Assembly: GCA_009777445.1 (NCBI GenBank)
Contig: WRLV01000012.1
Span: 1 to 39,493, forward strand
DNA: 39,493 nt
Direction of reading: 5' to 3'
DNA from: Oscillospiraceae bacterium
GTDB taxonomy: Bacteria; Bacillota; Clostridia; Oscillospirales; Ruminococcaceae
Below are positions 10,094-35,207 of this stretch, piece after piece. A model generated the notes under the pieces. The model saw only the letters and a list, made by a program, of their open reading frames with translations, searched no databases and was not told the origin of the DNA. Both the position numbers and the translations under genes were made by a program. Position 1 is the first letter of the stretch; every line of letters begins with the position of its first letter.

Positions 10094-10164
10094 CGGACAA
10101 TTGACAATGTACAATTGACAATTGACAATTGTTGTGTCCGCTAACGCGGACGGATTTGAATTTA
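10094..10164 (+). repeat. Heptamer-hairpin element, copy 1
   Basis: Directly after the stop at 10091-10093 come five heptamers at 10094-10128. Three are TTGACAA and two are degenerate. A 7-nt spacer and the hairpin GTCCGC-TAAC-GCGGAC (10136-10151) follow, then GGATTTGAATTTA. The hairpin has no T-tract, so it is not a terminator itself. The same architecture recurs near 23955, 24951, 25021 and 30925, and in part at 35187. Confidence 0.85.
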
Positions 10165-10173
10165 TGGCAAATT

Positions 10174-10205
10174 ACACCGCCCGGCACTTGTGTGTCGGGC
10201 GGTGT
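10174..10205 (+). terminator. Intrinsic terminator between convergent genes
   Basis: A 14-bp stem (ACACCGCCCGGCAC pairing with GTGTCGGGCGGTGT, one G-T pair) with a 4-nt loop, followed by TTTAAAT. It lies between the 9596 gene and the convergent 10218 gene and probably serves both. Confidence 0.75.
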
Positions 10206-10217
10206 TTAAATATAATC

Positions 10218-13200
10218 TTAAATCAGTGCAAGGTAGGCTGGTGAAAATACTCTTTGTTTAACGAGAACTCTCTTGATGTATGTCAAGTCGGCTATGTTTG
10301 CTCTGCCATCGCGGTTTATGTCTACTATTTGCGCCATTTGCGCTGGGGTTAAGTTTGACGGTATTGTTCGCCTTGTTAAGAAATTTCTTAGTGCGGTTAA
10401 GTCATTCGCATCAACAATGCCGTCTTCGTTTATGTCACCGGTTAATATTCTGTTGGGTCTGCCGTTTGTCGAGCCTGTTCCCGACCATGTGCCGTTGTCG
10501 GCTCTTATCCCGTTGTCTGTGAAGTTAACGCGCACACTCATGTTCTCGTTGTAGACAATCCATATTTTAACATAACCATCTGTGTTGGGGATTGTCGTGT
10601 GCGAAGCTTGCCCGTCAAGACTGCTTTCCCAGTTCAAGACTGCAAAGTGGCGTTTTCCGCCGTTCACGTCTAACGGTTTTGCTACCGCTGTGAATTCAAC
10701 AACGCTTCCTGCTCTCACGTCGTCACCGCTTTTTACTTCAATGCCGTTAACAGTTGCAATCAGCTCATTTTGCGCGCCATCGGGCTGACTTGCCACCGCG
10801 AAAGTTAGGGTGGCATCATTAGTGGGCATTGGATTTTGCACGCTAAACGCCGCGGTTGCATAACCCAAGGCGTAGCCCCTTGTTCCATTAAGATATGCTT
10901 CAAGATGTTCTTTGTCCCAGTCGTTCTCGAAGCCGTTGCGGTCGATATCGACAAATGCCCTCCATTGAGCATCTTTTGTAGCGTTTCCGATTAATCCGGG
11001 ATTACGAACAGATGCGTCGCCGCTTAGATATCTTGTCAGCAATTCTAAGTCGGTCTCATCAACGACATAGTCAAGGTTAATGTCGCCAATCAACGCACGG
11101 GTCGGGTGCACAGCCCAGTTTCTTGTGACAACCCCTGTGTTGATGTTTCTTGCGATGGTATATCTGCCGTTTTGCATAAAGTTAACGGTTATAGTTCTGT
11201 CGCCTATGGCATCAATCCAGTGTTTATTCGCGCCTGCCGCAGGGAGAACCGGGTTAGTTGCCTGATTATGCGCCGAGTCAGTCCAAAGATTTATTGCATA
11301 GTAGTCTGTGTGCGTGCTTTCTGTGGCTCCGGCTGTAACTCGACTTACCACCTCAAACGTTTTTGCTTCAAACTCGATAACGCTACCATAAGGCACGGTG
11401 ATTTTATGGTCAACACCTGAGGCTTCCGGTCTGTATGTGACACCGTCAACAGTTGCCTCTAAGAAGTTCAGCGGTAGGTTTATGCCGGGACTAACGGCAG
11501 GATTAGTGTATCTGAATGTAATGTCAACCGTCTCGGGCGGCAAGACAGGCATGGGATTCGTGACGTTAAACTGCACCGGCAAAGTGCCGAGCGTATAACC
11601 TCTGATGTCATCAAGATAGTTTCTCAAATATTCAACATCAGCGGCATTTATTCTGTTCATGGTGTCGCGGTTGATGTTGAACACAGCGTTAAACTGCGCA
11701 TCGGTAAGGTTCGGGTGGCGAATGCTTGTGTCGCCGTCAACATAATTTTGCAACAATTCTAAATCTTTTTCGTTAACAACCCCATCAAAGTTAATATCGC
11801 CGATTGGGGCTCTTCCAGGGTGAGTTGACCAAGTTTGGTTGCTTTGGTTTAACGTCCCATTTGCGAGAAACTGCACGCGAATAGTTTTGTCGGTGCTACC
11901 GACTTCAAGCCAATATCGGTCTAACCCTGCCTGCGAGAGTATTGCCGCCGGCGGTGGGGTGGGACCGGCACCGTCAGTCCAGGTGTTCACTGCCCAGCGA
12001 TTTTCCGTGCCGGCATTCTGCCCGGAATCATTAATTCTCGGAATTGTCGTGGCTCTGAATTCAACGGTTCTGCCCTGTTGAACCAAGCCGCCGCTTTGAA
12101 GTGGAACAGGGTTGCCGTCATTGTCGTACCAAAACGCCTCGAAAAATGTGTGTCCGTCAACGGCGCCGCTTTGTATGCTATAAGAAATCATACGCCTTGT
12201 TTCCGTGCCGCGTTCAGCCAAATTCGCAACTACGTGAAGCGACTCTAACGCCACTAATTCTGTATGCGCGGTTGAGTTTTCACCGCCAACATCGTGGTTG
12301 TTCACCACCCATGAAGTAACATAGTTCCAGGGTTCGGTTTCCGGGAAGAATTCGACAATACTGCCAATTCCGATTCTCTCGCTGCTTCTAAATTCATGGT
12401 CACCAACGCCGACTTCTTCGCCGCCGGGGCAGGTTTCACCTTCTTCGCGCTCACATCTTTCGCCGTCACAGATAATCGAGCCTGAAACTTTAGCAGAAAC
12501 TTCGCCAATTACACCGTGGGCAGGGTTAGCTTCAAACGTCACCGGCAACGGGGCAAAGTCAGATTCGATTATTTCAAAATCTTTGAAAAATTCGTGTGCT
12601 TCATAATTTTCTTTAGCCCCCACGGGAACAATGATTGTGATTTTGCTCAAGTCTAAGCCAGAAAATGGAGATTGCAGTGTGGTCGGGTCAATTGGTGGTT
12701 GCATTGTTCTCATAACAACCGACTCTAAACTATCACAACCCTCAAAAGCATACTCTCTCACTCGTTGCATAGTCTCGGGTAACATGATTGCCTTTAACGA
12801 CTTAGCATTCTGGAACGAACGCGAGACTAATTCTTCCATTCCGTCAATGAAAACCATAGCAACCACACCGCTGTCGGTAAAAGCGTTACCTTGAACAATA
12901 TTTATTGTGTAGGGTATATTAACGGTTCTTAAAGAACTGCAATTCCTAAACGCCCACAACCCGACTTCGGTGATGATTTGAGGTCCCGGCGGTGGTGACA
13001 CGTTTATGGTTGCTGCTCTTAAACGAATACAACTCATAAAAATGCGAGCGGGAATGCGATAAACACCTCTGCCTATATGAGCTGTTTCAAGGTTTCTGTT
13101 GTTTTCAAAAACACCCAATGTCGGCTCGGTGCCACTGGTATTACCCTCGGTAAGCAGTGTCACACTGTCCGGTATTCTCACATGTCTCAAGGCACTTTCT

Positions 13201-15824
13201 ATTTGACGTTCAGTCGAGGTGGGCGGTGGCGGTGAATTGCCAGCCATAGTGCCGGTTCCTAAATACGAGATGCCGAACGCCCCAAAGCTCAATTCTACTA
13301 ACCCTTCATTCAGTGTTAAATCAGCCAAGCTCCAACAATCTCTAAATGCTTCATTTGCTATAACTCTGAGACTATCCGGAGTAACAAGCTCGGGCAGAGA
13401 TATACAATCCCTAAATGCATTAGAATTGATTAGCCATAATTGGCTGCCAAGATAAAGCTCCACTAATGATGCATTATTCTGAAAAGCAGACCAATCGATA
13501 ACTTCAACCGATTCGCCGACATAAATGCTCTCTATATCCACGTGGTTTTGAAAAGCGTATCTGCCGATATATCTCACCCCATCGCCTATGTGGGCTTTTT
13601 TCATCACCGGTCGCGGCAACGGGGTCGGTCTCACCCCCGAAGCAAAGATGTAAAATGCCTTCTCTTCAATTCTCACCACACTATCGGGGACGACAATTTC
13701 AGTCAACCCCGTGCAGCGTTGAAATGCCCCTCTGTCTATAACAAGTAAACCGGAGGGTAAAATCACGGTCGGCTCAGGCGGCTTAGTTTGGTCAAAAGGC
13801 TCATCGGGGTTATATGAACGCGATAATTTTGCGCAAGACCTAAAAGTGTCTTGCTCAACCACTTTGAGCTCTTTGGGCAGTCTTATAGTCTCTAAATTTG
13901 TGCAGTTGGCGAACGCTCTTCTGCCCAAATAAACGACCGAATCCGGCAAATATGCGAAGGTAAATGTAGCAGCGGTGCAACCATTAAACGCATCGTTGCC
14001 TACATACCTTAAATTCGGAGAGTTAATCATGACAACTGAGTTTAAATTTGTGCAACCTCTGAACGCGCCACTGCCGATAATCTCAATTTTTTCGCCTAAG
14101 GTGACAGAGTCAAGCCTTGTGCATTCTCTAAACGCTTCATTTCCAATCACAGTCACCTGCGTTTGCTCAAAACCTATTGTCTGTAAAGTGGTGCAACCCC
14201 GAAATGCCATATCCCCAAGATGTGTGAAAGTGGTCGGAAAGTCAAATCTTCCTATACTGGTGCAACCGCGAAATGCTTCACGCTCGATTGAAAGAAATCC
14301 CTCGGGCAAATTGACTGATGTTATTGTATTTTTGTTAAAAAACGCCCTTCTCCCTATGCTTTTCAGTGTAGTGGGCATTATAAACTCGTTGATGTCGATA
14401 TTCGTCCCGGAAAAAGCGTTGTCTGCTATATGCACTATTCCCTCTGGGATTGTAAGCCTTGGTATAAACCCTTGACCGGGCGGTGGGTTTCTGCGTAGCC
14501 AATAAACGTTGCCGATAATAAAATCGTTGCCGTAAGGGGTAGACCACGGGGAGGTGTCTCCTACTACAAGAGCAGAAGGGCCAATCCAAATTAATTCCGG
14601 GAAATTTGCACCGGAGCTTGTTGTCAAATTGCTTATTCTGGTGCTTCGGCTAAACTCCTCTGCTATGCCTTTTGTGTCATCACGCAAAGAGATTTGGAAA
14701 TTCCCGGGTGCAATGGGGTCAACATATAGATAAGCGACCTTTCCGAAATACACCGGGCCGCCGCCTATAGAACTTCGGACAACACCGGTAGAGGGGTGTG
14801 TGAAAACTTCTAACCATGCAGTGGCGAGAAACGCGCTTTTATATATTCTGCTCACGCTGTCAGGATAGGTAGAGCCCGTCACGTCTTGCTCATCACCTGA
14901 GCTATTGGCGCGTTCAAAATACCTCAAGGCTCCACAGCCCGAAAAGGTGTTTTCGCCGATAGTGACAAGGGTTTCGGGCAAGGTCACCTTAGTTATACTT
15001 GCTTGAAAAGCGTTAAAGTCGCCAATCGCGCCGGGGGGCGATGGGGGTCTTGACATAAAAACACCACGAACGGGGGTAAAAGACACAGCACCTGAATCGT
15101 TTTCCCACGCGCCGGGTGTTTCCCCGGTAGTAGGAAAAGAGGCCGGCGGCAAGTTCGGGTGAAAATTCACAGCCGATTCAATAGCAACCACAGGGTAACC
15201 GGCGAAATCATTGGTGACACCCAATTTGTCGGGTATAATCAAATGCCCATCGGTGGGGACAGCCCAGTCTTGAAATCCGATAGTATAATACCGCCCTGTT
15301 GTTTCGTTGCGAGCGGCTATATATCGCCCATATCCGGTTATTGTCGCTTCACCGCCCGAAACAGTATATCTAAACCTACCCGGGCAGTGGTCGGTATGAC
15401 CACCACCGGTGCAACCACAATCGTCAAATTTCTCAGTAGAGTCTGTATTATCAAGGATAAAGTCATCACCGTCAAAATCAAAATTCCACTCTGCGGTAAT
15501 TAAATCTTCATCTGTTATGTACACCTCTTCATATCCGGGCGTATTATTTATATCAAATGTATCATCATAAAATGTCTCGCCGCCGTAAAACGTTTCGCTC
15601 TCGCCGAATGTTTCACCGCCGTAAAACGTCTCAACATCGCCGAATGTCTCACCTTCGCCGAACGTTTCATTGTCGCCAAGCGTTTCACCATCGCCAAGCA
15701 TCTCACCCTCGCCGAAAGTTTCACCATCACCGATATGGTCATCGTCTGTGATGGCGGCTCCCGCAAAGGTAGTTGAAAGCATTGCCATCGACAACAAAAT
15801 AGCTACTAATTTTTTCATTTTCAT
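10218..15824 (-). CDS. Secreted BspA-like leucine-rich-repeat protein with three dockerin-like modules
   Basis: 1868 aa from the ATG at 15824, preceded by AGAAAGGTGAG; upstream in-frame codons lack a ribosome binding site. A signal peptide (residues 1-24, cleavage near AGAA) is followed by nine acidic hexapeptides of the type G(D/E)GETF at 32-85. BspA/TpLRR-type (LRR_5) repeats of about 23 aa, with recurring 'LP..L..I...AF..C..L' signatures, fill about 270-1040. The C-terminal third is built as [beta-rich module about 110-170 aa + dockerin-like pair of EF loops] three times. The dockerins lie near 1339-1410 (GDINFDGVVNEKDL), 1578-1652 (GDINLDYVVDETDL) and 1795-1854 (GDINEDGIVDANDL and DINRDGRANIADLTYI). 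BspA-like proteins bind host or matrix components; calcium-dependent docking is inferred. No enzyme domain is seen. Confidence 0.85.
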   Translation of the reverse strand: MKMKKLVAILLSMAMLSTTFAGAAITDDDHIGDGETFGEGEMLGDGETLGDNETFGEGETFGDVETFYGGETFGESETFYGGETFYDDTFDINNTPGYEEVYITDEDLITAEWNFDFDGDDFILDNTDSTEKFDDCGCTGGGHTDHCPGRFRYTVSGGEATITGYGRYIAARNETTGRYYTIGFQDWAVPTDGHLIIPDKLGVTNDFAGYPVVAIESAVNFHPNLPPASFPTTGETPGAWENDSGAVSFTPVRGVFMSRPPSPPGAIGDFNAFQASITKVTLPETLVTIGENTFSGCGALRYFERANSSGDEQDVTGSTYPDSVSRIYKSAFLATAWLEVFTHPSTGVVRSSIGGGPVYFGKVAYLYVDPIAPGNFQISLRDDTKGIAEEFSRSTRISNLTTSSGANFPELIWIGPSALVVGDTSPWSTPYGNDFIIGNVYWLRRNPPPGQGFIPRLTIPEGIVHIADNAFSGTNIDINEFIMPTTLKSIGRRAFFNKNTITSVNLPEGFLSIEREAFRGCTSIGRFDFPTTFTHLGDMAFRGCTTLQTIGFEQTQVTVIGNEAFRECTRLDSVTLGEKIEIIGSGAFRGCTNLNSVVMINSPNLRYVGNDAFNGCTAATFTFAYLPDSVVYLGRRAFANCTNLETIRLPKELKVVEQDTFRSCAKLSRSYNPDEPFDQTKPPEPTVILPSGLLVIDRGAFQRCTGLTEIVVPDSVVRIEEKAFYIFASGVRPTPLPRPVMKKAHIGDGVRYIGRYAFQNHVDIESIYVGESVEVIDWSAFQNNASLVELYLGSQLWLINSNAFRDCISLPELVTPDSLRVIANEAFRDCWSLADLTLNEGLVELSFGAFGISYLGTGTMAGNSPPPPTSTERQIESALRHVRIPDSVTLLTEGNTSGTEPTLGVFENNRNLETAHIGRGVYRIPARIFMSCIRLRAATINVSPPPGPQIITEVGLWAFRNCSSLRTVNIPYTINIVQGNAFTDSGVVAMVFIDGMEELVSRSFQNAKSLKAIMLPETMQRVREYAFEGCDSLESVVMRTMQPPIDPTTLQSPFSGLDLSKITIIVPVGAKENYEAHEFFKDFEIIESDFAPLPVTFEANPAHGVIGEVSAKVSGSIICDGERCEREEGETCPGGEEVGVGDHEFRSSERIGIGSIVEFFPETEPWNYVTSWVVNNHDVGGENSTAHTELVALESLHVVANLAERGTETRRMISYSIQSGAVDGHTFFEAFWYDNDGNPVPLQSGGLVQQGRTVEFRATTIPRINDSGQNAGTENRWAVNTWTDGAGPTPPPAAILSQAGLDRYWLEVGSTDKTIRVQFLANGTLNQSNQTWSTHPGRAPIGDINFDGVVNEKDLELLQNYVDGDTSIRHPNLTDAQFNAVFNINRDTMNRINAADVEYLRNYLDDIRGYTLGTLPVQFNVTNPMPVLPPETVDITFRYTNPAVSPGINLPLNFLEATVDGVTYRPEASGVDHKITVPYGSVIEFEAKTFEVVSRVTAGATESTHTDYYAINLWTDSAHNQATNPVLPAAGANKHWIDAIGDRTITVNFMQNGRYTIARNINTGVVTRNWAVHPTRALIGDINLDYVVDETDLELLTRYLSGDASVRNPGLIGNATKDAQWRAFVDIDRNGFENDWDKEHLEAYLNGTRGYALGYATAAFSVQNPMPTNDATLTFAVASQPDGAQNELIATVNGIEVKSGDDVRAGSVVEFTAVAKPLDVNGGKRHFAVLNWESSLDGQASHTTIPNTDGYVKIWIVYNENMSVRVNFTDNGIRADNGTWSGTGSTNGRPNRILTGDINEDGIVDANDLTALRNFLTRRTIPSNLTPAQMAQIVDINRDGRANIADLTYIKRVLVKQRVFSPAYLALI
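15570..15731 (-). repeat. Nine 18-bp units encoding acidic hexapeptides
   Basis: Nine in-register hexapeptides (GDGETF, GEGEML, GDGETL, GDNETF, GEGETF, GDVETF, YGGETF, GESETF, YGGETF) lie immediately after the signal peptide of the BspA-like protein. The array is likely slippage-prone and forms an acidic spacer. Confidence 0.9.
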
Positions 15825-15856
15825 AAACTCACCTTTCTTAAATACAAATTGAACCA

Positions 15857-15880
15857 TTAATCGTCTTCGTTTTCTGAATC
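15857..15880 (-). repeat. 24-bp direct repeat flanking vapBC, distal copy
   Basis: Identical over 24 bp to 16562-16585, which is the 3' end of the 56-aa gene (codons for DSENEDD and the stop). It abuts the vapC stop codon at 15881-15883. The pair brackets a segment of 681 bp holding vapBC. Confidence 0.9.
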
Positions 15881-16279
15881 CTACCACACAGTCAAAACCC
15901 ATGGCAGAGTATCAAACGCCGGGTCACTCGTGATTAGGGTAAGATTTTCAAATGAGGCTTGTGCCGCTAACAGTCTGTCGAAAGGGTCACGATGTTCCCA
16001 CTTGAACTTTCCTGCTAAATGTGCGTGGCGCGCACTTAACGGCAATTCTTTCGCGCCAAACATTTCAAGAACATCGAAATAGTTTTCGGCAACAAAAATA
16101 TATTCCTCTAATTTTTTGAGTTGATGCTTATACATGATTTCGTAAGCACTCACCGAAGAAACATATTTTGTTACACTCGTATCAGCAATCGCTTCTTTAG
16201 CCGCTATGCTCAAATTTTGACTTCCACGCAAAGCCCAAAGCAAAGTGCAAGTGTCGAGCAGATAGCCTACAGTCCCCAT
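15881..16279 (-). CDS. vapC: PIN-domain VapC-type toxin ribonuclease
   Basis: 132 aa PIN domain. The expected acidic residues are present: D9 (YLLDTCTLLW), E47 (SAYEI), D98/D101 (EHRDPFDRLLAAQA) and D119 (ITSDPAF). This set is typical of active VapC Mg2+-dependent RNases. It overlaps the upstream antitoxin by 13 nt, and a GGAGGAGG inside the antitoxin end serves as its ribosome binding site. The gene ends exactly at a 24-bp direct repeat. It is probably a type II toxin cleaving tRNA or rRNA; the exact target is unknown. Confidence 0.88.
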   Translation of the reverse strand: MGTVGYLLDTCTLLWALRGSQNLSIAAKEAIADTSVTKYVSSVSAYEIMYKHQLKKLEEYIFVAENYFDVLEMFGAKELPLSARHAHLAGKFKWEHRDPFDRLLAAQASFENLTLITSDPAFDTLPWVLTVW

Positions 16280-16500: not shown

Positions 16501-16521
16501 ATCTTTTCTCCTACAACTTCT

Positions 16522-16556
16522 GCGGTCTCAGGACGGGTCCTGCCCGTCCCCCACGG
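16522..16556 (-). repeat. GC-rich hairpin repeat, copy A
   Basis: Inverted repeat GGACGGG/CCCGTCC at 16531-16549 in a context (GCGGTC...GCCCGTCCCC.AC) shared with 16761-16795. The two copies bracket the 56-aa gene. It looks like a short dispersed palindromic repeat of REP/MITE type. No T-tract follows. Confidence 0.7.
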
Positions 16557-16585: not shown

Positions 16586-16732
16586 AATTTCCGCTTTTGC
16601 TTCTTTGTACGGTTTCAAGACCACTCCTTCTGAATTTGCCACTTTAGCAATGATTCGATACATCGCTTTTGAGTCAGTTCTAATTGCCGCATCTGCTAAT
16701 AAGCCTAATAATACTTTTGTTTCAAATGCCAT
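16562..16732 (-). CDS. Small paralogous protein, 56 aa (copy with acidic tail)
   Basis: 56 aa from the ATG at 16732 (MAFETKVLLGLLADAAIRTD...). It is clearly paralogous to the 54-aa product at 17291-17455: residues 1-50 align without gaps and mostly match. The two also share the leader GGGGGTTTTA(A/T)GTT just before the ATG. The function is not recognised; the sequence suggests a compact helical protein. Its last codons (DSENEDD, stop) form the 24-bp repeat copied at 15857-15880 beyond vapBC. A longer frame to 16768 lacks support. Confidence 0.75.
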   Translation of the reverse strand: MAFETKVLLGLLADAAIRTDSKAMYRIIAKVANSEGVVLKPYKEAKAEIDSENEDD

Positions 16733-16760
16733 AACATAAAACCCCCTGTTTTCGCTATTT

Positions 16761-17290: not shown

Positions 17291-17455
17291 TTAACCGCCA
17301 TTCAACAATTCCTTTTTTGCTTCTTCATAGGGTTTTAATAATATTCCCTCAGAATTTGCCGCCTTTGCGATAACCCTATACACTTCTTTTGCAGTATCTG
17401 CTTTAAGTGCCGCATCTGCCAATAAAGACAATAATGCTTTTGTTTCATATGCCAT
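17291..17455 (-). CDS. Small paralogous protein, 54 aa
   Basis: MAYETKALLSLLADAALKAD... ends in ...KKELLNGG. It was found by reading the minus strand and is supported by a gap-free match with the 56-aa product at 16562-16732. Conserved positions include MA(Y/F)ETK, LLADAA, the (A/V)NSEG segment and LKPY.EAK. Conservation at protein level and of the GGGGGTTTTA leader argues for a real gene. Function unknown. A 67-aa frame covering the same DNA is a shadow of it. Confidence 0.75.
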   Translation of the reverse strand: MAYETKALLSLLADAALKADTAKEVYRVIAKAANSEGILLKPYEEAKKELLNGG

Positions 17456-17485
17456 AACTTAAAACCCCCTTTTTTCATAACTGCG

Positions 17486-21410: not shown

Positions 21411-21761
21411 TTATATAAATTCTTTTAAAGAGATGTTTTCGCCGTCTGCCCACAGCCTTTCAAGGTCATAAAATTCGCGTGTTTCATCATGAAAAACATG
21501 GACGATTACATCACTGTAGTCTAAAACAACCCAATTTGCCCCGTGATAACCCTCGGTGCGGTTTGGCTTCAGCCCCTCTTTAGCAAGCTTGACTTCAACT
21601 TCGTCCGCTAACGCCTTAACCTGCGCTGAATTAGAGCCGCTTGACAATACAAAATAATTAGAAAGACTCGTTAAGTTTTCCACTTTTATTACTTTTATGT
21701 CTTTTGCTTTCTTATCATCGAGAGCCTTTACGGCAGTTTTAATAATTTCTAAATCGTTCAT
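21411..21761 (-). CDS. rsfS: Ribosome silencing factor RsfS
   Basis: 116 aa from the ATG at 21761 (MNDLEIIKTAVKALDDKKAK). It binds L14 and blocks subunit joining during starvation. The conserved VLSSGSNSAQVKALADEV and the GYHGANWVVLDYSDVIVHVF segment are present. The longer frame to 21815 reads through the dispersed element that provides the AGAAAGGAG ribosome binding site. Order yqeK-rsfS is standard. Confidence 0.95.
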   Translation of the reverse strand: MNDLEIIKTAVKALDDKKAKDIKVIKVENLTSLSNYFVLSSGSNSAQVKALADEVEVKLAKEGLKPNRTEGYHGANWVVLDYSDVIVHVFHDETREFYDLERLWADGENISLKEFI

Positions 21762-21775
21762 TCTTTTAGATATCT

Positions 21776-21834
21776 CCTTTCTGCACAAATGCGTTTTGAA
21801 AGTGCGTTTTCCCATATTTACGAGGATTTATTTT
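21776..21834 (-). repeat. Dispersed 59-bp intercistronic element, copy 2
   Basis: Matches 9-67 with 4 mismatches. Its upstream end encodes the last residues and stop of YqeK (FENKSS after MSK). Its downstream end is the AGAAAGG ribosome binding site of rsfS, so the repeat forms the joint between the two genes. Confidence 0.8.
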
Positions 21835-23941: not shown

Positions 23942-24006
23942 TAAATTCAAATCCGTCCGCGTAAGCGGACACAATAACTGTCAATTGTCAATTGTCAACT
24001 GTCAAT
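23942..24006 (-). repeat. Heptamer-hairpin element, copy 2
   Basis: On the minus strand four TTGACA(A/G)-type heptamers (23979-24006), 8 nt, the hairpin at 23955-23970 (GTCCGC/GCGGAC stem, 4-nt loop) and GGATTTGAATTTAT. The array encodes the final QLTVDN and the TGA stop of FtsY. Confidence 0.88.
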
Positions 24007-24929
24007 TGTTCGTCAAAGTTCACTCCTTCAAAAATAGCATCCACAAAGCTTTGGGGTGAGAATGGTTCAAGGTCGTCTTGTTTTTCGCCCACCCCTATAA
24101 ATTTCACCGGAATGTTAAGCTCATTTTTGATTGATATTATAATCCCACCTTTTGCTGTGCCGTCAAGTTTAGTAAGTATGATTCCCGAAATTTCCGTGAC
24201 TTCGTTGAACAGCCTTGCTTGATTAACTGCGTTTTGACCCGTTGTGGCATCTAATGTAAGCAGTGTCTCAAACGTGCTTTCGGGTAACTCTTTTGCGACA
24301 ATTCGCGCTATTTTCTTGAGTTCGTCCATCAGGTGTTTTTTGTTATGAAGTCGCCCTGCCGTGTCGATGATGAGAATGTCAACATCTCGTGCTTTTGCGG
24401 CTCTGCAACTGTCGAACACAACCGCTGACGGGTCGCTTCCCTCGGCGTGTTTTATAATGTCAACACCGGCGCGCTCAACCCAGGTGTCAAGCTGTTCTAT
24501 TGCTGCGGCGCGAAAAGTGTCTGCCGCGCAAACCAAGACTTTTTTACCCTCGTTTTTAAATTTGGCAGAGAGTTTGCCTACGGTGGTGGTCTTTCCTCCA
24601 CCATTAACCCCGATGATTAAGATAACCGTCGGCTTTGTCGGCAAGTCAAGCTCGTTGCCGCCCGAAAGCATTTTTGCAATAATATCCTTGAGGATTTCCA
24701 CCGCCTTGTTAACGTCTGTCTCGTTTGCTTTTTTCAAAGCAACGCGGAGTTGATTACAAATATCGTTTGCAGTAACCCCCCCTATATCAGACAAAATCAA
24801 GGTTTCTTCCAGCTCATCAAAAAACGCCTCGTCTATTTTTTTAAACGACTTCATAATCCCGGCGATTTTTTCAGAAAAGCTGTCTTTAGTTTTCTTAAGC
24901 CCCTGCTTAATCTTATCGAATAATCCCAT
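23988..24929 (-). CDS. ftsY: Signal recognition particle receptor FtsY
   Basis: 313 aa from the ATG at 24929, preceded by GGGAGAA. It has the NG GTPase core without a long acidic A domain. The P-loop GVNGGGKTTTVGKL, DTFRAAAIEQLDTW, DTAGRLHNK and TKLDGTAKGG are all present. It docks SRP-ribosome complexes at the membrane. Upstream in-frame codons (MCPLARTDLK...) are repeat-derived. The last residues (QLTVDN) and the stop come from heptamer repeats. It follows smc, as in Bacillus. Confidence 0.97.
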   Translation of the reverse strand: MGLFDKIKQGLKKTKDSFSEKIAGIMKSFKKIDEAFFDELEETLILSDIGGVTANDICNQLRVALKKANETDVNKAVEILKDIIAKMLSGGNELDLPTKPTVILIIGVNGGGKTTTVGKLSAKFKNEGKKVLVCAADTFRAAAIEQLDTWVERAGVDIIKHAEGSDPSAVVFDSCRAAKARDVDILIIDTAGRLHNKKHLMDELKKIARIVAKELPESTFETLLTLDATTGQNAVNQARLFNEVTEISGIILTKLDGTAKGGIIISIKNELNIPVKFIGVGEKQDDLEPFSPQSFVDAIFEGVNFDEQLTVDN

Positions 24930-24950
24930 TAAATTCTCCCTTCTATACAG

Positions 24951-25086
24951 TTGATAGTTGACAGTGGACAGTGGACAGTTGTTGTGTCGCCTAACGGCGA
25001 CGTATTTGAATTTTAAATCCGTCCGCGCAAGCGGACACAATAACTGTCAATTGTCAATTGTCAACTGTCAACTGTCAACTGTCAAT
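24951..25086. repeat. Heptamer-hairpin elements, copies 3a and 3b in inverted arrangement
   Basis: Two elements face each other. 3a has heptamers at 24951-24978 (TTGATAG, TTGACAG, TGGACAG, TGGACAG), 7 nt, then the hairpin GTCGCC-TAAC-GGCGAC at 24986-25001. 3b, on the opposite strand, has the hairpin GTCCGC-GCAA-GCGGAC at 25021-25036, 8 nt, then six heptamers at 25045-25086. The stem bases differ between the hairpins but pairing is preserved. 3b supplies the last codons and stop of smc. Confidence 0.88.
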
Positions 25087-28672: not shown

Positions 28673-29329
28673 TTAGAAAATCTTCTTTTCAATGGCATCT
28701 TTAGCCGCCATTTGTCCTGCTCTTTTTTTGTTTGTGCCTGTGCCTGTCCCGATAATTTTGCCTTTAAACTTTACCTGTAGGGTGAAAGTTTTTTCATGCG
28801 GTGCGCCGCTCTCTTCGGCTAAATAGTATTCCACCGTTTCTCTATGGTTTTTTTGGACTAACTCCTGCAAAATAGTTTTATAATCCCTGCGTTCGACATT
28901 CGCTTTTTTTAAAGTAGAGGGGTTAGGCATAAACTGCAACAAAAATTTTTTTGTTTCTCTCATTCCACCGTCAAGATAAATTGCCGCGACAAGCGCCTCA
29001 AACGCATCGGCTAATATTGACTTCTTCGCCCTGCCGCCTGCTACTTCTTCACCCTTTGCTAATTTGATTTTCTCGTCTAATTTGATTTTTTTGGCGAACT
29101 CAGAGAGGGATTGCTCACGGACTATGCTTGCGCGAATTTTAGTCAATTCACCCTCCGGCAGTGATGGTAGGTTTTTATACAAAAAGTCAGCCACGACCAT
29201 GCCTAATATACTGTCCCCTAAAAACTCTAACCTCTCGTTTGACTTTATTCCCGTGGTGTCGGCAAGAGATGAATGGGTCAGTGCCTCATTTAAATATTTC
29301 TTGTTTTTAAAGTTATAACTAATTAACAA
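28673..29329 (-). CDS. rnc: Ribonuclease III
   Basis: 218 aa. The catalytic signature NERLEFLGDSILG (E35, D39) and a C-terminal double-stranded RNA-binding domain (about 150-218) are present. It processes rRNA precursors and structured mRNAs. Start: TTG at 29329 with GAGGGCGG upstream; no in-frame ATG is available. No acpP lies between it and plsX, unlike the usual plsX-fab-acpP-rnc order. Confidence 0.95.
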   Translation of the reverse strand: MLISYNFKNKKYLNEALTHSSLADTTGIKSNERLEFLGDSILGMVVADFLYKNLPSLPEGELTKIRASIVREQSLSEFAKKIKLDEKIKLAKGEEVAGGRAKKSILADAFEALVAAIYLDGGMRETKKFLLQFMPNPSTLKKANVERRDYKTILQELVQKNHRETVEYYLAEESGAPHEKTFTLQVKFKGKIIGTGTGTNKKRAGQMAAKDAIEKKIF

Positions 29330-29339
29330 TTCGCCGCCC

Positions 29340-30338
29340 TCATAAACTTCCCAACTCTTTTAAATTTTTCTCTATTTCACGAAGAACATCTCTTTTGACA
29401 AACTCTCGTGCTTGGCGAATGGCATTTTTAAACGCGTGTGCATCACTTGAGCCGTGCGCTTTAAACACCGCGCCGTTACAGCCGAGCAGGGGTGTCCCCC
29501 CCACTTCTTTATAATCAATGCTGTCGGCAAATTTTTTCAGACCTTTTTTTGAAAGCAGATACCCTATTTTGGCGGCAATGTTTGTGGTGAAAATTGTTTT
29601 AAACCCCACCTTCATAAATGAACCCATTCCTTCAACCACTTTAAGATAGACATTTCCGGTAAAGCCGTCTGTTACAACAACGTCACATCTTGCCAATATT
29701 GGGTCTCTTCCCTCTATGTTGCCGATAAAATTGACGGGCGCTTCACTAAGAAGGCTTAATGCCTTTAGTTCGAGTTCTCTGCCTTTTTTGTCCTCTGTGC
29801 CAACGTTTAAAAGCCCCACACGTGGATTTTTGATGTTCATGATTTTTTCCATATAAACGCTACCCATCACAGCAAACTGCAACAGCATTTCAGCGCGACA
29901 TTCAAGGTTTGCGCCAACGTCCAACAGCATATAAAAGCCGTTGGTGCTTGGCATTATTGTGGCTAACGCCGGGCGTTTGACACCCTTTAATCTGCCGACA
30001 ACCATAGTGCCGCCGACCACCAAAGCCGCCGTGCTTCCCGCGCTCACTGCCGCATTTGCAACGCCTTGCGAAACTAATTTCAAAGTCATTCCCATAGAAC
30101 AGCCTGCTTTTGCTTTTCTTATGTCGGTTGGATTGTCTTCAACTCCTATGATACCGTCTGCATGTATAATCTCGACATTCCTACCCGAAACTGAAAGCGT
30201 GTCAAAACGACTTTTAAGCAGTTGTTTGTCACCGACTAAGAAAATCTCTACTCCATATTCTTCCACCGCCAAAGCCGCGCCTTTTATAACCTCATCAGGC
30301 GAATTATCGCCACCAAACGCATCAATTGCAATCTTCAT
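29340..30338 (-). CDS. plsX: Phosphate acyltransferase PlsX
   Basis: 332 aa from the ATG at 30338 (MKIAIDAFGGDNSP). It makes acyl-phosphate from acyl-ACP for phospholipid synthesis at the membrane face. Family motifs include AIDAFGGDNSP, VSAGSTAALVVGGT, LLDVGANLECR and VVTDGFTGNVYLK. The start was chosen because the leader AGAAAGGACATGTCTAAAAA resembles that of rsfS. The ATG at 30350 would be only 2 nt from the ribosome binding site and would overlap the upstream gene. Confidence 0.95.
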   Translation of the reverse strand: MKIAIDAFGGDNSPDEVIKGAALAVEEYGVEIFLVGDKQLLKSRFDTLSVSGRNVEIIHADGIIGVEDNPTDIRKAKAGCSMGMTLKLVSQGVANAAVSAGSTAALVVGGTMVVGRLKGVKRPALATIMPSTNGFYMLLDVGANLECRAEMLLQFAVMGSVYMEKIMNIKNPRVGLLNVGTEDKKGRELELKALSLLSEAPVNFIGNIEGRDPILARCDVVVTDGFTGNVYLKVVEGMGSFMKVGFKTIFTTNIAAKIGYLLSKKGLKKFADSIDYKEVGGTPLLGCNGAVFKAHGSSDAHAFKNAIRQAREFVKRDVLREIEKNLKELGSL

Positions 30339-30342
30339 TTTT

Positions 30343-30912
30343 TTAGACATGTCCTTTCTGCAAAACCTCAAGCCATTCGGGAAAATCACTGCCTTTAGTT
30401 ATTAACTCCCCGTTTTTATATTCACCCACCTCAACAAAACCGTTTTCATTATCATAGAAAACTGCTTCATCGCAATAAGGCAGAACATTTATAAGCGACT
30501 CAAAACGGCTTTTAAATCTGCGCTCTATGTCTTCATAGCAAATATTATGACCACCCTTTTCAACGCGATTTTTTACTCTTTTAACGCTCTCGTCACAGGT
30601 GTTCAGCCCTATATAATAAAGCCTTACGACATAGCCCTTTTTCTTTGCAAGTTTAATGGTTCTTTTTGTTCTTTTGCCTGATAAAGTGGTCTCTTGTGTG
30701 AAAGGTTTAGCTTCTGAAATAAGCGCGTTTATTTTTTTAAGCGCGATTTTACCGGCACTCACAGCCGCGCACTTGTTGTGTAACGCGATTTTGTCAATAT
30801 CTATAACTGCCCCCAAATCTCTTCTTTCAGCCCTTAAAACACCCGTCAAACAAGACTTCCCCACACCGTTCACCCCGGCTATAATCGTATACGTCACTTT
30901 CAAAACACCCAT
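30343..30912 (-). CDS. Zeta-toxin-like P-loop ATPase
   Basis: About 189 aa; the start could be the ATG at 30912 or a TTG at 30903. The first residues of the longest frame are encoded by a repeat element and were left out. The P-loop GVNGVGKSCL follows VTYTIIA, and SGKRTKRTIKLAKKKGYVVRLYYIGL resembles the AAA_33/zeta-toxin family seen as lone chromosomal genes. Substrate not known; UDP-sugar phosphorylation is a property of true zeta toxins and only a possibility here. No epsilon-like antitoxin is adjacent. It occupies the slot upstream of plsX. Confidence 0.72.
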   Translation of the reverse strand: MGVLKVTYTIIAGVNGVGKSCLTGVLRAERRDLGAVIDIDKIALHNKCAAVSAGKIALKKINALISEAKPFTQETTLSGKRTKRTIKLAKKKGYVVRLYYIGLNTCDESVKRVKNRVEKGGHNICYEDIERRFKSRFESLINVLPYCDEAVFYDNENGFVEVGEYKNGELITKGSDFPEWLEVLQKGHV

Positions 30913-30916
30913 TCCC

Positions 30917-30976
30917 TTAAATTCGTCGCCGCAAGGCGACACCAAAATTGTCAATTGTCAATTGTCAACTGTCAAT
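30917..30976 (-). repeat. Heptamer-hairpin element, copy 4
   Basis: Four heptamers (30949-30976 on the minus strand), 8 nt, then a GTCGCC/GGCGAC hairpin (30925-30940) and GAATTTAAGGGA. It supplies the end of TrmFO (IDS, TGA) and precedes the zeta-like gene. The stem is of the GTCGCC type, like 3a. Confidence 0.87.
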
Positions 30977-32278
30977 TGCCGTTATTCCTCTAACAGCCAA
31001 TCGCATATATCTTTCCTGTTTGTTCTTGATTTTTTCGTCTAAGGGAGGTAATAATCCCATGTTTGCCCCCATTGGCTGGAAGTCGTCGGAGTATCGATTT
31101 TTGTCGCTTATATAGGCAGACAATGCCCCTATCATAGATGTCGGCGGTAGTTTTAAAGGAGCAACCCCTTTCAACTTTCGCGCCAAAGACATTCCTGCAA
31201 TAATTCCACTTGCCGCGCTCTCCATGTAGCCCTCAACGCCGGTAATTTGCCCTGCGAAAAATATATTGTCCGCGCCATTGAGCATAAACGTCTCATCGAG
31301 AAGTTTGGGGCTGTTTATAAAGGTATTGCGGTGCATTACCCCATAACGCACAAACTCGGCGTTCTCAAGCCCGGGGATTAGTTTGAACACCCGTTCTTGT
31401 TCACTGAATTTTAAATTTGTTTGAAACCCCACAAGGTTATAAAGGGTTTTGGCGTTATTTTCAACCCTCAACTGAACCACGGCATACGGGCGTTTTGAGG
31501 TTTTCGGGTTAATCAGCCCCACAGGCTTCATACAGCCGTATCGTAGTGATTCAGCCCCTCTTTTCGCCAAAACTTCAATCGGCATACAGCCCTCAAAAAC
31601 TTTCAGCGTTTCAAATTCACGCAAAGGGGCAGTTTGCGCCTGCACAAGGGCGTTATAAAACCGCTCGTATTCTTCTTTTTCAAAAGGGCAGTTTATATAA
31701 TCCGCTTCTCCTTTATCATAGCGAGTGGCAAAATAAACCTTGTCCGCATTAATGCTCTCAGCGGATATAATCGGTGCAGCGGCATCATAAAAGCTCAAAA
31801 AGCCAACCCCACACCGCTGTTCAATTCTCGCGGCAAAAGCATCGCTTGTCAAAGGTCCTGTGCAGATAATTGCGTTGCTTTCGGGGAACAGTGTTAACTC
31901 TCGATGTTCAACCGTAATATTTTTATTTTCTTTAATTTGTTTGGTGATTAGGTCTGAAAATAAAACTCTGTCTACCGCAAGTGCCCCTCCGGCAGGGGTG
32001 GCAGTGCGCAAGGCGGCCTCAACTGTTATTGAGCCTAACCTTCTCATTTCTTCTTTGAGCATACCTGCCGCACTGTCAATTCTTTTGGCTTTAAGGGAAT
32101 TTGAACAAACCAATTCGGCAAACCCGTCATAAGAGTGAGCCGGGCTTTTTTTCACGGGCTTCATCTCAATAAGCCTAACCGAGAATCCCTCACGTGCTAA
32201 AACATTCGCCGCTTCAACTCCGGCTAAACCGGCACCGATTACGCTACATTCTATAGACTTGAACAACTCATTTTTCAA
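30965..32278 (-). CDS. trmFO: Folate-dependent tRNA (uracil-54-C5)-methyltransferase TrmFO
   Basis: 437 aa from a TTG at 32278, placed 7 nt after AAAGAGGG and overlapping topA by 11 nt; a TTG at 32266 is the alternative. It uses methylene-THF and FADH2 to make ribothymidine at tRNA position 54. The FAD motif GAGLAG (15-20), LVCSNSLKA, ICTGPLTSDAF and GQITGVEGYMESAASG are diagnostic. The topA-trmFO pair is a conserved Firmicute order. The folate cyclo-ligase at 5027 feeds the same folate pool. Confidence 0.95.
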   Translation of the reverse strand: MKNELFKSIECSVIGAGLAGVEAANVLAREGFSVRLIEMKPVKKSPAHSYDGFAELVCSNSLKAKRIDSAAGMLKEEMRRLGSITVEAALRTATPAGGALAVDRVLFSDLITKQIKENKNITVEHRELTLFPESNAIICTGPLTSDAFAARIEQRCGVGFLSFYDAAAPIISAESINADKVYFATRYDKGEADYINCPFEKEEYERFYNALVQAQTAPLREFETLKVFEGCMPIEVLAKRGAESLRYGCMKPVGLINPKTSKRPYAVVQLRVENNAKTLYNLVGFQTNLKFSEQERVFKLIPGLENAEFVRYGVMHRNTFINSPKLLDETFMLNGADNIFFAGQITGVEGYMESAASGIIAGMSLARKLKGVAPLKLPPTSMIGALSAYISDKNRYSDDFQPMGANMGLLPPLDEKIKNKQERYMRLAVRGITAIDS

Positions 32279-34340
32279 ATTCGCAACCCTCTTTATGGCA
32301 GCAAATCTTTTTACCTGCCTTTTGAAACAAATAGTTACCGCATAACGGGCACTTATCGGCAATAGGCGTGTCCCAAGTCATGAAGTTACAGCTTTTGAAG
32401 TCTTCACAGCCGAAAAACGGTCTACCCTTCTTCGATTTTTTAGCCAACATCTTTTTCCCGCATTTAGGGCAAAATCCACCCGTCTCTGCTATGAGTTGTT
32501 TAGTGTTCCTACAATCAGGAAAACCCGAACAACCCATGAACTTTCCGAAACGCCCGATTTTTATGAGCATGTGCTTACCACACAACTCGCACTCTATATC
32601 AGTCACCTCGTCTGGGACTTTTACGCGTTTGCCTTCCATGTCGCTTTCGGCTTTTGACAGTGTCTGCTCAAAATCTTCATAGAATTTGTGCAACACGTCA
32701 ACCCATTGTGTGTTTCCTTCTTCTACGCTGTCTAATTCTTGTTCCATTCCCGCTGTGAATTTTGTGTCAACTATTCTGTTAAAGTGGTCTTTGAGTAAGT
32801 CGGTAATAACATCACCCAAAGGGGTCGGCAATAACTGCTTTTGTTGTCGCTCTACATAGTGCCTGTCAAGTATGGTTGAAATGGTCGGCGCGTAGGTTGA
32901 GGGTCTTCCGATTCCGTTTTCTTCCAACGCTTTAATAAGGCTCGCCTCGGTATAACGCGGCGGCGGTTGGGTGAAGTGTTGATTTGCTTTAACCGCGTTC
33001 GTTTTCAGTTTAACGTCTTTAGAAAGCGCGGGCAGGGCGACTTTTTGCTCTTTTTCTTGGCCTTCACTTTCAATGATTTCTTCATAAAGCCGCGTGAAAC
33101 CGTCAAACCGAACAGTATAACCGCTCGCCTTAAAAATGCAGTTGTCGGCTTTTATCGATACCGACATGGTATCAAGCAAAGCATCCGCCATTTGACTCGC
33201 CATGAACCGTTCCCAAATAAGTTTATAAAGCTTATATTGGTCCGCGCTAACACTTTGTTTTATATCATCGGGCGTGATAGATGCGACTGATGGACGAATT
33301 GCCTCATGTCCGTCTTGAGAGCCTTTTTTTGACTTAAATTCGCGTGGCTTTTTCGGGAGATATTCCTCTCCATATCTGTTTGTTATAATTTGCTTTGCTT
33401 CTGCTTTAGCTTCGTCTGAAATTCTTGTGCTGTCTGTTCGCATATAGGTAATCAGCCCGATTAACCCGTGTTCGGGCAACTCGACACCCTCATAAAGCTC
33501 TTGCGCCGCTTTCATGGCACGGCGCGAATTAAAAGACAGCTTCTTAGATGCTTCTTGTTGAAGGGTCGAGGTAATAAACGGCGGGGCGGGTTGTTTTTTT
33601 CTTATTGATTTTTTTACTCCATCGACTGTAAACTCAGCTCCCTCAAAACGCGCTAAAACTTCATGAGCCTGCGTTTCATTTTCAAGCTCGGCTTTATTCC
33701 CGTCTATTTGAGCTAATTTAGCGTAAAATGTTTTTCTCTCGCCTTTAACCGAAAGCTGTGCATCAATGCTCCAATACTCTTGTGGGACGAAAGCCATTAT
33801 TTCTTTTTCACGTTCTACAATTATTCGTACAGCGACAGACTGAACCCTGCCTGCCGAAAGCCCCTTTCTCACCTTTTTCCATAAAAACGGGCTTAGCTTA
33901 TAGCCAACTAAGCGGTCGAGTATTCTTCTCGCTTGTTGGGCGTTAACTAAATCCATGTCAAGGCCGCGCGGATTGCTCATGCCGAACTCTATTCCGCTTT
34001 TGGTTATTTCGTTGAAGGTGACACGAATCGGTTGATTGACATCAAGCCCCAAAATATGGGCAAGGTGCCACGAAATAGCCTCCCCCTCGCGGTCAGGGTC
34101 GGTGGCTAAATAGATGTTTTTCGCCTTTTTAGCTTTTTTCTTCAACTCTGTTATTACTTCTTTTTTTTCTTTTTTGTTTTCATATTGCGGTGTGAAGTCA
34201 TGTTTGACATCCACCCCCAACTTTGATTTAGGCAAGTCGCGGATATGCCCGACAGACGCGACTACCCTATAACTTTTGCCTAAATATTTTTCAATGGTTT
34301 TGGCTTTTGCCGGTGACTCTACAATTATAAGATTAGACAA
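32268..34340 (-). CDS. topA: DNA topoisomerase I
   Basis: 690 aa type IA topoisomerase that relaxes negative supercoils. The Toprim domain (IIVESPAKAKTIEKYLG; DPDREGEAISWHL) and the active Tyr299 in GLITYMRTDSTRI are present. Three C-terminal zinc motifs (CELCGKHM, CPKCGKKM, CPLCGNYL with paired cysteines) end the protein. Start is TTG at 34340, with GGGGG 7 nt upstream, 1 nt after the previous stop. The family size is normal. Confidence 0.97.
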   Translation of the reverse strand: MSNLIIVESPAKAKTIEKYLGKSYRVVASVGHIRDLPKSKLGVDVKHDFTPQYENKKEKKEVITELKKKAKKAKNIYLATDPDREGEAISWHLAHILGLDVNQPIRVTFNEITKSGIEFGMSNPRGLDMDLVNAQQARRILDRLVGYKLSPFLWKKVRKGLSAGRVQSVAVRIIVEREKEIMAFVPQEYWSIDAQLSVKGERKTFYAKLAQIDGNKAELENETQAHEVLARFEGAEFTVDGVKKSIRKKQPAPPFITSTLQQEASKKLSFNSRRAMKAAQELYEGVELPEHGLIGLITYMRTDSTRISDEAKAEAKQIITNRYGEEYLPKKPREFKSKKGSQDGHEAIRPSVASITPDDIKQSVSADQYKLYKLIWERFMASQMADALLDTMSVSIKADNCIFKASGYTVRFDGFTRLYEEIIESEGQEKEQKVALPALSKDVKLKTNAVKANQHFTQPPPRYTEASLIKALEENGIGRPSTYAPTISTILDRHYVERQQKQLLPTPLGDVITDLLKDHFNRIVDTKFTAGMEQELDSVEEGNTQWVDVLHKFYEDFEQTLSKAESDMEGKRVKVPDEVTDIECELCGKHMLIKIGRFGKFMGCSGFPDCRNTKQLIAETGGFCPKCGKKMLAKKSKKGRPFFGCEDFKSCNFMTWDTPIADKCPLCGNYLFQKAGKKICCHKEGCEFEK

Positions 34341-34341
34341 T

Positions 34342-35127
34342 CTAAGACCCCCGTTTAAATTCCCACATCAGGATTGCCGCGGCAACGGCAGCATTAAGCG
34401 ATTGAATTTTTTCTATGGGAATGTATATTTTCTCGTCTGCTAAGTCTGTAATTTGGGGAGAAACCCCCCTCGCTTCGTTACCTATGATTATTGCTGATTT
34501 TCTGTTGAAGTTGATTTCGTCGGGGCGTTTGGCATCATCGTCCAAAACGCACGAGTGCACGCTAAAACCGTTTTCTTTAAGCGTTTTTACGGCAGACACT
34601 AAGTCAGCGGGTATTAAATTCAGCCGAAAAACAGAACCCATCGAACCCCTCAAAACTTTTCCCGAATAAATATCGGGGCAATCGGGTGTGAAAATCACGG
34701 CATCCATTCCGAGGGCCTCGGCAGTTCTGATTATTGTCCCCATATTCCCCGAATCTTGAATATGGTCTAACAAGAGCAGTTTTTTTGCGTCGGCTATTAG
34801 TTTACCCGAAATTTCCGGTTTTTCGCGCATGTGAAATTCCAAAAAAACCCCTTGCGGTGTGGTTGTATCGGATATATATTCCCCTAAATCGTTGCTTATT
34901 ACCGTTAGTTTGCACAGTTTAGCCACTTTTTTATAAAAGTCGGCATATTTTTTAACGGCAAAATCGGTAAAAACAGCACTAAGCGGCATAACACCGCAAC
35001 TCAACGCATCTTCAGAAAGCTTAAAGCCCTCACAAACAAACGCCGCAAATCTAAGCCGCTCTTTTTTATCGGCAATTAACTTTTTGTATTTTAAAACGAT
35101 TTCATTTTTTCTCGACGTTATTATCAT
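34342..35127 (-). CDS. TrmH/SpoU-family RNA 2'-O-methyltransferase (YsgA-like)
   Basis: 261 aa with an N-terminal substrate-binding domain and a SPOUT methyltransferase domain. The motifs are LLDHIQDSGNMGTIIRTAEALG (motif 1), IIGNEARGVS (motif 2) and PIEKIQSLNAAVAAAI (motif 3). It probably methylates 23S rRNA using SAM. The location after infC-rpmI-rplT recalls ysgA of Bacillus. Confidence 0.92.
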   Translation of the reverse strand: MIITSRKNEIVLKYKKLIADKKERLRFAAFVCEGFKLSEDALSCGVMPLSAVFTDFAVKKYADFYKKVAKLCKLTVISNDLGEYISDTTTPQGVFLEFHMREKPEISGKLIADAKKLLLLDHIQDSGNMGTIIRTAEALGMDAVIFTPDCPDIYSGKVLRGSMGSVFRLNLIPADLVSAVKTLKENGFSVHSCVLDDDAKRPDEINFNRKSAIIIGNEARGVSPQITDLADEKIYIPIEKIQSLNAAVAAAILMWEFKRGS

Positions 35128-35145
35128 TAAAACCTCAAAATAAGC

Positions 35146-35176
35146 AATATCACGTCCGTCAAACGGCCGTGATATT
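35146..35176 (-). other. Imperfect hairpin between rplT and the methyltransferase gene
   Basis: AATATCACG-T-CCGT pairs with ACGG-C-CGTGATATT around a 3-nt loop. The minus-strand tail is only moderately T-rich, so it may be a partial terminator of the infC operon or an RNA-stability hairpin. Confidence 0.5.
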
Positions 35177-35186
35177 TTAGATTAAC

Positions 35187-35207
35187 TGTCAACTGTCAAT
35201 TGTCAAC
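35187..35207 (-). repeat. Heptamer array, copy 5 (three units, no standard hairpin)
   Basis: On the minus strand three TTGACA(A/G) heptamers begin 16 nt after the rplT stop. The usual 6-bp-stem hairpin is missing, but the larger hairpin at 35146-35176 lies just downstream. Three units are the minimum that put a TGA in every forward frame. Confidence 0.75.

Follow-up and report, generated by a model that had tools for sequence, protein, structure and literature searches.

The locus raises the question of what a repeated composite of tandem heptamers and a hairpin is, and why it lies at the 3' ends of genes. We analyzed the whole stretch of 39,493 nucleotides (contig WRLV01000012.1; hereafter the window), for which an earlier note had described six copies at five loci, and all six were present. 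In the sense direction, an arm consisted of a tandem TTGACA(A/G) array, often preceded by a head beginning TGACG, and a GC-rich stem-loop beginning 8 nt past the last TTGACA. This distance had been given as 7 nt in some copies and 8 nt in others; measured from the last TTGACA or TGGACA to the stem, it was 8 nt in each of the five copies that have the standard hairpin. Copy 1 (plus strand) comprised a head and array (10091-10127) that opens with the stop codon TGA (10091-10093) of the gene at 9548-10093, the stem-loop GTCCGC-TAAC-GCGGAC (10136-10151), a tail GGATTTGAATTTA (10152-10164), and a second, terminator-like hairpin with a 14-bp stem and a 4-nt loop (10174-10205). On the minus strand, the arrays of copy 2 (23979-24009), copy 3b (25042-25085), and copy 4 (30946-30978) hold the stop codons of ftsY (23988-23990), smc (25068-25070), and a GidA-family gene (30965-30967), respectively, so that these genes terminate within arrays and carry element-coded tails such as QLTVDN. 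The stem-loops of these copies, also on the minus strand, were GTCCGC/GCGGAC in copies 2 (23955-23970) and 3b (25021-25036) and GTCGCC/GGCGAC in copy 4 (30925-30940).

Two copies departed from this layout. Copy 3a (plus strand; array 24947-24981, adjoining the ftsY start; stem-loop GTCGCC/GGCGAC, 24986-25001) had been listed as the orientation exception, and it is indeed opposite; it forms an inverted pair with copy 3b, in which it is the distal arm. The fold of its stretch was no better than those of shuffles (z of -0.17), as opposed to z values of -2.2 to -6.7 in the other five of the six folds. Copy 5 (minus strand) has an array at 35184-35213, 10 nt past the ribosomal protein L20 gene, whose stop codon is at 35224-35226. 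It had been described as lacking the standard hairpin, which is correct in that its stem is of another sequence, but a hairpin is present at 35146-35176 (minus strand). The inverted-pair form, the further 14-bp hairpin of copy 1, and the stop codons that begin copy 1 and lie within copies 2, 3b, and 4 had been overlooked.

The pattern TTGACANTTGACA, with at most one mismatch, matched 17 times in the window, compared to a mean of 0.32 in shuffles (0/100 of which reached 17), and its exact form matched 468 times across the whole source genome. Period 7 alone was enriched among array periods (107 arrays versus 1 to 8 at other periods), and the 6-bp main stem was found in 87/119 arms versus 7.7% in shuffles. 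A chance origin was rejected by these shuffle, array-period, and stem comparisons. The ATTTGAATTT(A/T) tail was rejected as a marker, since it behaved as expected by chance when searched alone with at most one mismatch (10 matches versus 8.0 expected). The differences between the stem variants GTCCGC/GCGGAC and GTCGCC/GGCGAC are paired substitutions. No unpaired GTAG or CGTC tag accompanied the main stems, and a GTAG-type palindrome (TGTAGGG-type) was present in 25/144 arms. A full copy consists of two arms in inverted orientation, and the one-armed form is the majority: by a strict rule requiring arrays at both ends, 12/89 elements were two-armed, and three copies had TGACG... heads at both ends. 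The second hairpin occurred 30 times in 778 kb of the source genome. An Rfam scan of the window at the gathering threshold gave 0 matches, and a known RNA family was rejected on this ground; a literature text search for TTGACAATTGACA or TGTCAATTGTCAA gave no match in the papers covered.

The claims of gene 3'-end placement, fixed geometry, and orientation bias held over 778 kb of the source genome (39% of it), including 348 kb that had been held out. Of the 89 array-bearing elements found there, 62 lay in tandem, 21 in convergent, and 3 in divergent spacers and 3 at edges, corresponding to 1.46, 3.1, and 0.23 elements per kb of tandem, convergent, and divergent spacer, respectively. Single arms in tandem spacers were sense in 44 cases and antisense in 1, and the 75 nt preceding a start held 16 sense and 9 antisense arrays. 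The earlier proposal of a transcribed RNA-level element, made from sequence, is thereby partly supported: the placement, geometry, and orientation held and the stem shows paired substitutions, whereas a function as RNA is conjectural. Random orientation and location had been named as evidence against that proposal; neither was random in the source genome, but two other species (genomes G005, G029, and G083) showed little orientation bias, with 14 sense and 13 antisense arms in tandem spacers and 8/48 arms in divergent spacers.

The heptamer itself suggests why gene ends are involved. TTGACA(A/G) includes TGA, and because its 7-nt length is not divisible by 3, a run of three heptamers covers every frame of the sense strand with a stop, whereas the other strand has no stop in any frame. 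This gives a concrete reason why a heptamer can reside at gene ends: one strand stops ribosomes in every frame. With genes called by our own codon-model script rather than a standard gene finder, 82/703 genes in the 778 kb had a sense array at the 3' end and 1/703 had an antisense array. The stop codon was the TGA assigned to the element in 65/82 of the sense-array genes; in the remaining 17/82 it lay outside the element assignment, which counts against this reading. TGA was the stop of 70/82 array genes versus 198/621 genes without an array (p 8e-21). The stop was TGAC in 37 array genes, some of which may be native because 44/198 TGA stops without an array also precede C. A TGA of the head served as the stop in 22/31 genes with type-A heads. 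Some genes had element-coded C-terminal tails of up to 9 residues or so in the copies seen, and the repeat family has thus become part of many protein ends, including those of FtsY and SMC, which are expected to be essential. In the held-out 348 kb, 25/28 arrays lay behind a same-strand gene, and 21/25 of those genes stopped with TGA. In the same-genus genome G020, stop-less heptamers likewise occurred at gene ends, and therefore stop supply cannot be the sole reason for the placement.

Comparison with relatives indicated that the element was inserted, as the array was absent at 6/6 comparable gene ends in the closest relative (G069). No tandem array after ftsY was seen by eye in the loci of 29 relatives. 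In this patchiness, the element resembles bacterial MITEs, which are short and non-coding, have inverted terminal repeats, and are patchy among relatives; the element is likewise short and non-coding with terminal inverted repeats. No target duplication was seen in the few two-armed copies that have both heads (a flanking repeat in 0/3), and no matching transposase was found. Y1_Tnp (PF01797), the only transposase searched for, had 0 matches in the source genome, which is 91.6% complete, and this counts against mobility of the element. Among the seven genomes with at least 30 arrays that were covered by this search, five had no Y1_Tnp match and two (G008 and G020) had weak ones only, and G014 had 7 matches and 0 arrays. 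A RAYT-driven REP was rejected on the basis of these counts.

Other known systems, as described in the available portions of the papers cited, matched the element in part. GTAG/CGTC REPs and BIMEs are small high-copy palindromes of tandem and convergent spacers, where they adjoin 3' ends and commonly form inverted dimers, and GTAG REPs reportedly often supply TAG stop codons (Di Nocera 2013, PMC3733652). The element shares this placement, the inverted pairing of BIMEs (12/89), and, in 25/144 arms, the palindrome of GTAG REPs. However, its main stem is free of the GTAG/CGTC tag and linked at a fixed distance to a heptamer array, its stop is TGA in all three frames, and no RAYT was found in its genome. 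The TAACTGA heptamers of Beggiatoaceae, cyanobacteria, and Bacteroidetes also provide all-frame stops on one strand, and 14 of about 170 sets overlap the stop of the upstream gene (MacGregor 2015, PMC4679880). These repeats lie mostly just before start codons, and a hairpin is not among the features reported in the available part of that paper; the element, in contrast, has the unit TTGACA(A/G), lies at stops, and includes a hairpin and inverted pairs. Ribosome termination structures are stable mRNA structures directly after stop codons (Chemla 2020, PMC7518266), where the hairpin of the element also lies, but they are presented as a feature of gene ends in general and not as a mobile repeat. 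REPs that supply stops and heptamers with three-frame stops are thus already in print separately, and what is new is the joined array and hairpin, used by about 9% of genes.

We conclude that the composite is probably a dispersed, non-coding REP/MITE-like family that was inserted at gene 3' ends and in which each arm serves as a translation stop independent of frame. It would have spread by transposition or recombination, and insertion would be tolerated where the reading frame is ended cleanly. The arm supplying the stop would then be retained because the gene needs it, and the other arm could be lost. The hairpin, which would sit in the 3' untranslated RNA, may keep re-initiation or decay in check; where the second hairpin and a T run are also present, the copy may end transcription. 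Tolerance alone, however, does not readily account for the rarity of antisense single arms behind native stops. It is conceivable, though doubtful, that the element is a selected gene-end cassette, kept for function and not only tolerated, in which the all-frame stops guard against read-through or frameshift, with the hairpin shielding the next gene from re-initiation or protecting the 3' end. The 44:1 sense bias of single arms, a density 6- to 13-fold lower in divergent spacers than in the others, and the stem preserved across species through paired substitutions favor selection, as does the sharing of array-ended orthologues between the source genome and G020 above expectation (8/69 pairs with both, one-sided p 0.034), although the p value moved between 0.034 and 0.059 with the threshold, which makes this test marginal, and spacer length confounds it. 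Across 35 genomes of the genus, array counts range from 0 to 81, so there is no general need for the element, and the available part of a survey reports no bacterial selection for extra stops (PMC6764699). Against that negative survey, the family is a natural test case for whether tandem stops and stop-proximal hairpins matter in bacteria. More speculatively, it could be a mobile cassette for ending genes that is retained for its function: in either orientation, its inverted repeats would offer the upstream gene an all-frame stop, followed by a hairpin that insulates and, in some copies, a terminator. Insertions at gene ends would then be harmless or useful, and the host would come to rely on them at roughly one in ten genes.

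The placement might instead reflect target choice rather than selection, with the element entering sense-oriented at a TGA or next to one. The stop codon coincides with that of the relative in several orthologue pairs (e.g., L039, L048, L115, and L117), and the first three bases of the type-A head are the stop in 12/31 genes. This reading is nevertheless unlikely, as 9/31 heads use the second TGA and 1/31 the third, the 28 stops inside exact heptamers are distributed 12/8/8 over the first, second, and third heptamers, which is the spread expected regardless of frame, and other genes gained or lost residues compared to the relative. A primary role of the elements as intrinsic transcription terminators is quite improbable. 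Stable hairpins at gene ends (five of the six folds above) and the T runs trailing the second hairpin in several of its copies are consistent with termination, but just 18/67 main stems have at least 4 consecutive T within the next 9 nt, many copies lie between tandem genes near the next start, and the supply of stops would be left unexplained. We give very little credence to heptamer satellites grown in place by slippage, with no mobility and an incidental hairpin. Heptamers are prone to such growth (PMC4679880, in its available part) and period 7 is the sole enriched array period, but arrays at many sites have in common the head, the fixed-distance stem, the inverted pairs, and the second hairpin.

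The element appears to extend beyond the genus. At least a few matches were found in a collection of 84,980 species, where the array-plus-hairpin pattern used had too short a spacer and absences carry no meaning. When 398 genomes from the phylum were scanned for the array by itself, 7 had a match, including the source genome, and matches were also found in viral contigs.

The heptamer TTGACA(A/G) contains TGA and, since seven is not a multiple of three, this stop codon enters each frame in turn along successive heptamers; the opposite strand of the array has a stop in none of its frames. In the window, ftsY, smc and a GidA-family gene terminate within arrays (copies at 23955-24009, 25021-25085 and 30925-30978, respectively, all on the minus strand), which give them the C-termini ...FDEQLTVDN*, ...LLTVDS* and ...AIDS*. 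Copy 1 (10091-10205, plus strand) opens with three bases that form the stop of gene 9548-10093. The earlier note had described six copies at five loci, placed at gene 3' ends, and all are present as it stated, but it overlooked the stop codon in the heptamer. Its distinction between 7- and 8-nt array-hairpin distances was not borne out: each of the five hairpin copies has its stem starting 8 nt past the final TTGACA/TGGACA. Tandem TTGACA heptamers gave 17 matches with at most one mismatch in the window, against a shuffle mean of 0.32, and 0 of 100 shuffles reached 17. Five of six predicted folds were better than their own shuffles (z -2.2 to -6.7), and that of copy 3a (24947-25001, plus strand) was no better (z -0.17). 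Copy 1 has a second, terminator-like hairpin at 10174-10205, and copy 5 (35146-35213, minus strand) has its own at 35146-35176. At the loci of 29 relatives, no tandem array was seen by eye in the stretch of up to 120 nt downstream of ftsY, and the FtsY ends are unlike that of the present genome. So are the SMC ends where readable (29 rows, 4 without smc and some others unusable because taken from the wrong strand), which often read ...QELIDDMELELD*.

The genome of the same assembly spans 1.98 Mb in 91 contigs (91.6% complete). It contains exact TTGACANTTGACA 468 times, along with 156 heads beginning TGACG (type-A heads, at most two mismatches) and 111 array-hairpin composites. We examined 41 stretches closely, including the window (778 kb); the hypothesis was built on 429 kb and checked on 348 kb previously unused. 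In the latter, 25 of 28 arrays lay downstream of a same-strand gene, in agreement with the proposed placement, and 0 of 28 within called genes; 21 of the 25 preceding genes stopped with TGA, compared with 120 of the 302 called genes of that set. Counting arrays from 40 nt before to 75 nt after the stop, 82 of the 703 genes with a complete 3' end in the 778 kb had a sense array (TTGACA on the coding strand) and 1 an antisense array. TGA ended 70 of these 82 genes versus 198 of 621 array-less genes (p 8e-21). The stop lay in an exact heptamer in 28 of the 82, and in 37 it belonged to a neighbouring unit that was TGAC or resembled it; the remainder were TAA (10), TAG (2) and another TGA (5). Some of the 37 TGAC-type stops may be native, and C also follows TGA in 44 of the 198 TGA stops without an array. 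The 28 exact-heptamer stops share one heptamer phase because the sequence itself dictates it. Their even distribution over the three frames (first, second and third heptamer 12, 8 and 8) is not so dictated and fits frame-blind insertion. Among 31 type-A heads examined, the gene stop was at the first TGA in 12, the second in 9, the third in 1 and just before the head in 6; 3 had no same-strand gene end nearby.

Period 7 alone was enriched (107 arrays versus 1-8 each at periods 4-6 and 8-11). Of 144 arms detected with up to one mismatch, 25 had a GTAG-type palindrome downstream. Stems of 5 bp or more were found in 87 of the remaining 119 (7.7% in shuffles), and the 5' stem ended 14 nt past the last TTGACA in 78 of the 119. 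GTCCGC/GCGGAC (41) and GTCGCC/GGCGAC (36) dominated; a third stem, TCGGC/GCCGA, occurred with identical spacing in relatives G008 and G080. In an alignment of 15 distinct rows from this genome and relatives, drawn from a selection of the listed matches by a pattern that fixed three pairs and left the complementarity of two variable pairs free, every cell pairs. Twelve cells changed on both sides, where shuffles averaged 4.9, and covariation scored 0.404 versus 0.101 (0 of 500 shuffles as high for each); the two measures counting pairs or types were not above shuffles (456/500). At least four consecutive T followed within 9 nt in 18 of 67 main stems. The second hairpin occurred in 30 copies in the 778 kb, 18 of which were preceded by a same-strand array.

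REPs also adjoin 3' ends, and GTAG REPs often supply TAG stops (Di Nocera 2013, PMC3733652). TAACTGA heptamers carry stops in three frames; 14 sets overlap an upstream ORF end, and most lie just before start codons (MacGregor 2015, PMC4679880). A heptamer stop array joined at a fixed distance to a hairpin distinguishes the present element from those in the parts consulted of these two papers, and the array sequence as letters was not found in the literature searched.

The 89 elements in the 778 kb lay in tandem (62), convergent (21) and divergent (3) spacers or at edges (3), or 1.46, 3.1 and 0.23 per kb of tandem, convergent and divergent spacer with arms removed. The orientation bias claimed earlier is strict here: single arms in tandem spacers were 44 sense and 1 antisense. 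Those with a weak second arm were 5 sense and 3 antisense, and 9 were two-armed. Inverted pairs consist of array, stem, core, stem and array, with 55-172 bp separating the arms, and each arm can end one of two flanking convergent genes. A two-armed palindrome would offer an all-frame stop to the flanking gene on each side in any orientation. Because it would show a stop in every frame either way, insertion in the last codons or directly past the stop would do little damage; the arm whose TGA ends a gene could then not be lost, and the distal arm could. Such tolerated insertion accounts for the use of stops irrespective of frame, for the sense bias and for the one-armed copies, with no benefit needed. 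It does not fully account for the rarity of antisense single arms behind native stops, which might be due to directed insertion or to selection for the stop together with the hairpin. No target duplication was seen at three two-armed copies inspected, and a search of the genome for Y1 transposases gave no match.

No arrays were found in 173 kb of the closest relative, G069. Six of 25 orthologues shared with it carry the element in the present genome and none of these in G069; the C-termini of the former differ by 0, -3, -10, -2, +2 and -4 residues. Across 35 same-genus genomes, TTGACANTTGACA counts ranged from 0 to 81; the composite occurred in 9 of 71 genomes and three exact heptamers in 7 of 398 of the phylum, each including the present one. 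In stretches of relative G020 selected for arrays, 20 of 34 follow a same-strand gene (TGA stop in 18 of the 20) and 3 lie inside called genes. Stop-less heptamers also stand at G020 gene ends, AATGGAC (16 sense, 1 antisense) and AATGCAG (9 and 6); three AATGCAG cases (stretches L120, L130) are in orthologues of genes with a TTGACA element. Among 69 orthologue pairs, a period-7 array was present in both genomes in 8, in the present genome only in 7, in G020 only in 13 and in neither in 41 (p 0.034, one-sided; other thresholds gave 0.038 and 0.059). One gene, presumably for chorismate synthase, ends in an array in both (L045 13833-14810 and, in G020, L126 9178-10254), with different tails. In composite-selected stretches of G005 (of the window's genus), G029 and G083, the 48 arms were tandem (14 sense, 13 antisense), convergent (10), divergent (8) or at edges (3), and 8 of 25 stops lay in heptamers. 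From these counts, stop supply recurs, but strict orientation bias belongs to the present genome. Sporadic gene-end arrays also occur in some other genomes of the phylum, in Prevotellaceae and Parabacteroides records and in viral contigs; some arrays in these are not beside an ORF end.

Arrays are present on two prophage contigs sharing an IMG/VR genome number, L201 (identical across 1851 bases to the genome's contig C62) and L202, several of whose phage genes terminate in arrays. The L202 tape-measure gene is apparently broken into two ORFs, and the prophage may therefore be decaying. At L138 580-1552 (G000 contig C54), arms ~950 bp apart surround two small genes, which by eye we take to be a PIN/AbrB toxin-antitoxin pair. 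G000 contigs C46, C66 and C72 (L146, L148 and L147) start inside or near an element, which is what a repeat that breaks the assembly would produce.

A separate ~75-nt repeat lies at 6-85 (plus) and 21757-21834 (minus), directly upstream of gene starts at 157 (plus) and 21761 (minus), with 12 more blastn matches in the 778 kb, some partial; from its position, it is perhaps a 5' leader element. An 80-nt direct repeat (16674-16753 and 17397-17476, 84% identity) had no other copy in the 778-kb sample. The large protein encoded at 10218-15857 (minus) has BspA-type leucine-rich repeats and a type I dockerin, which suggests a cellulosome-like system.
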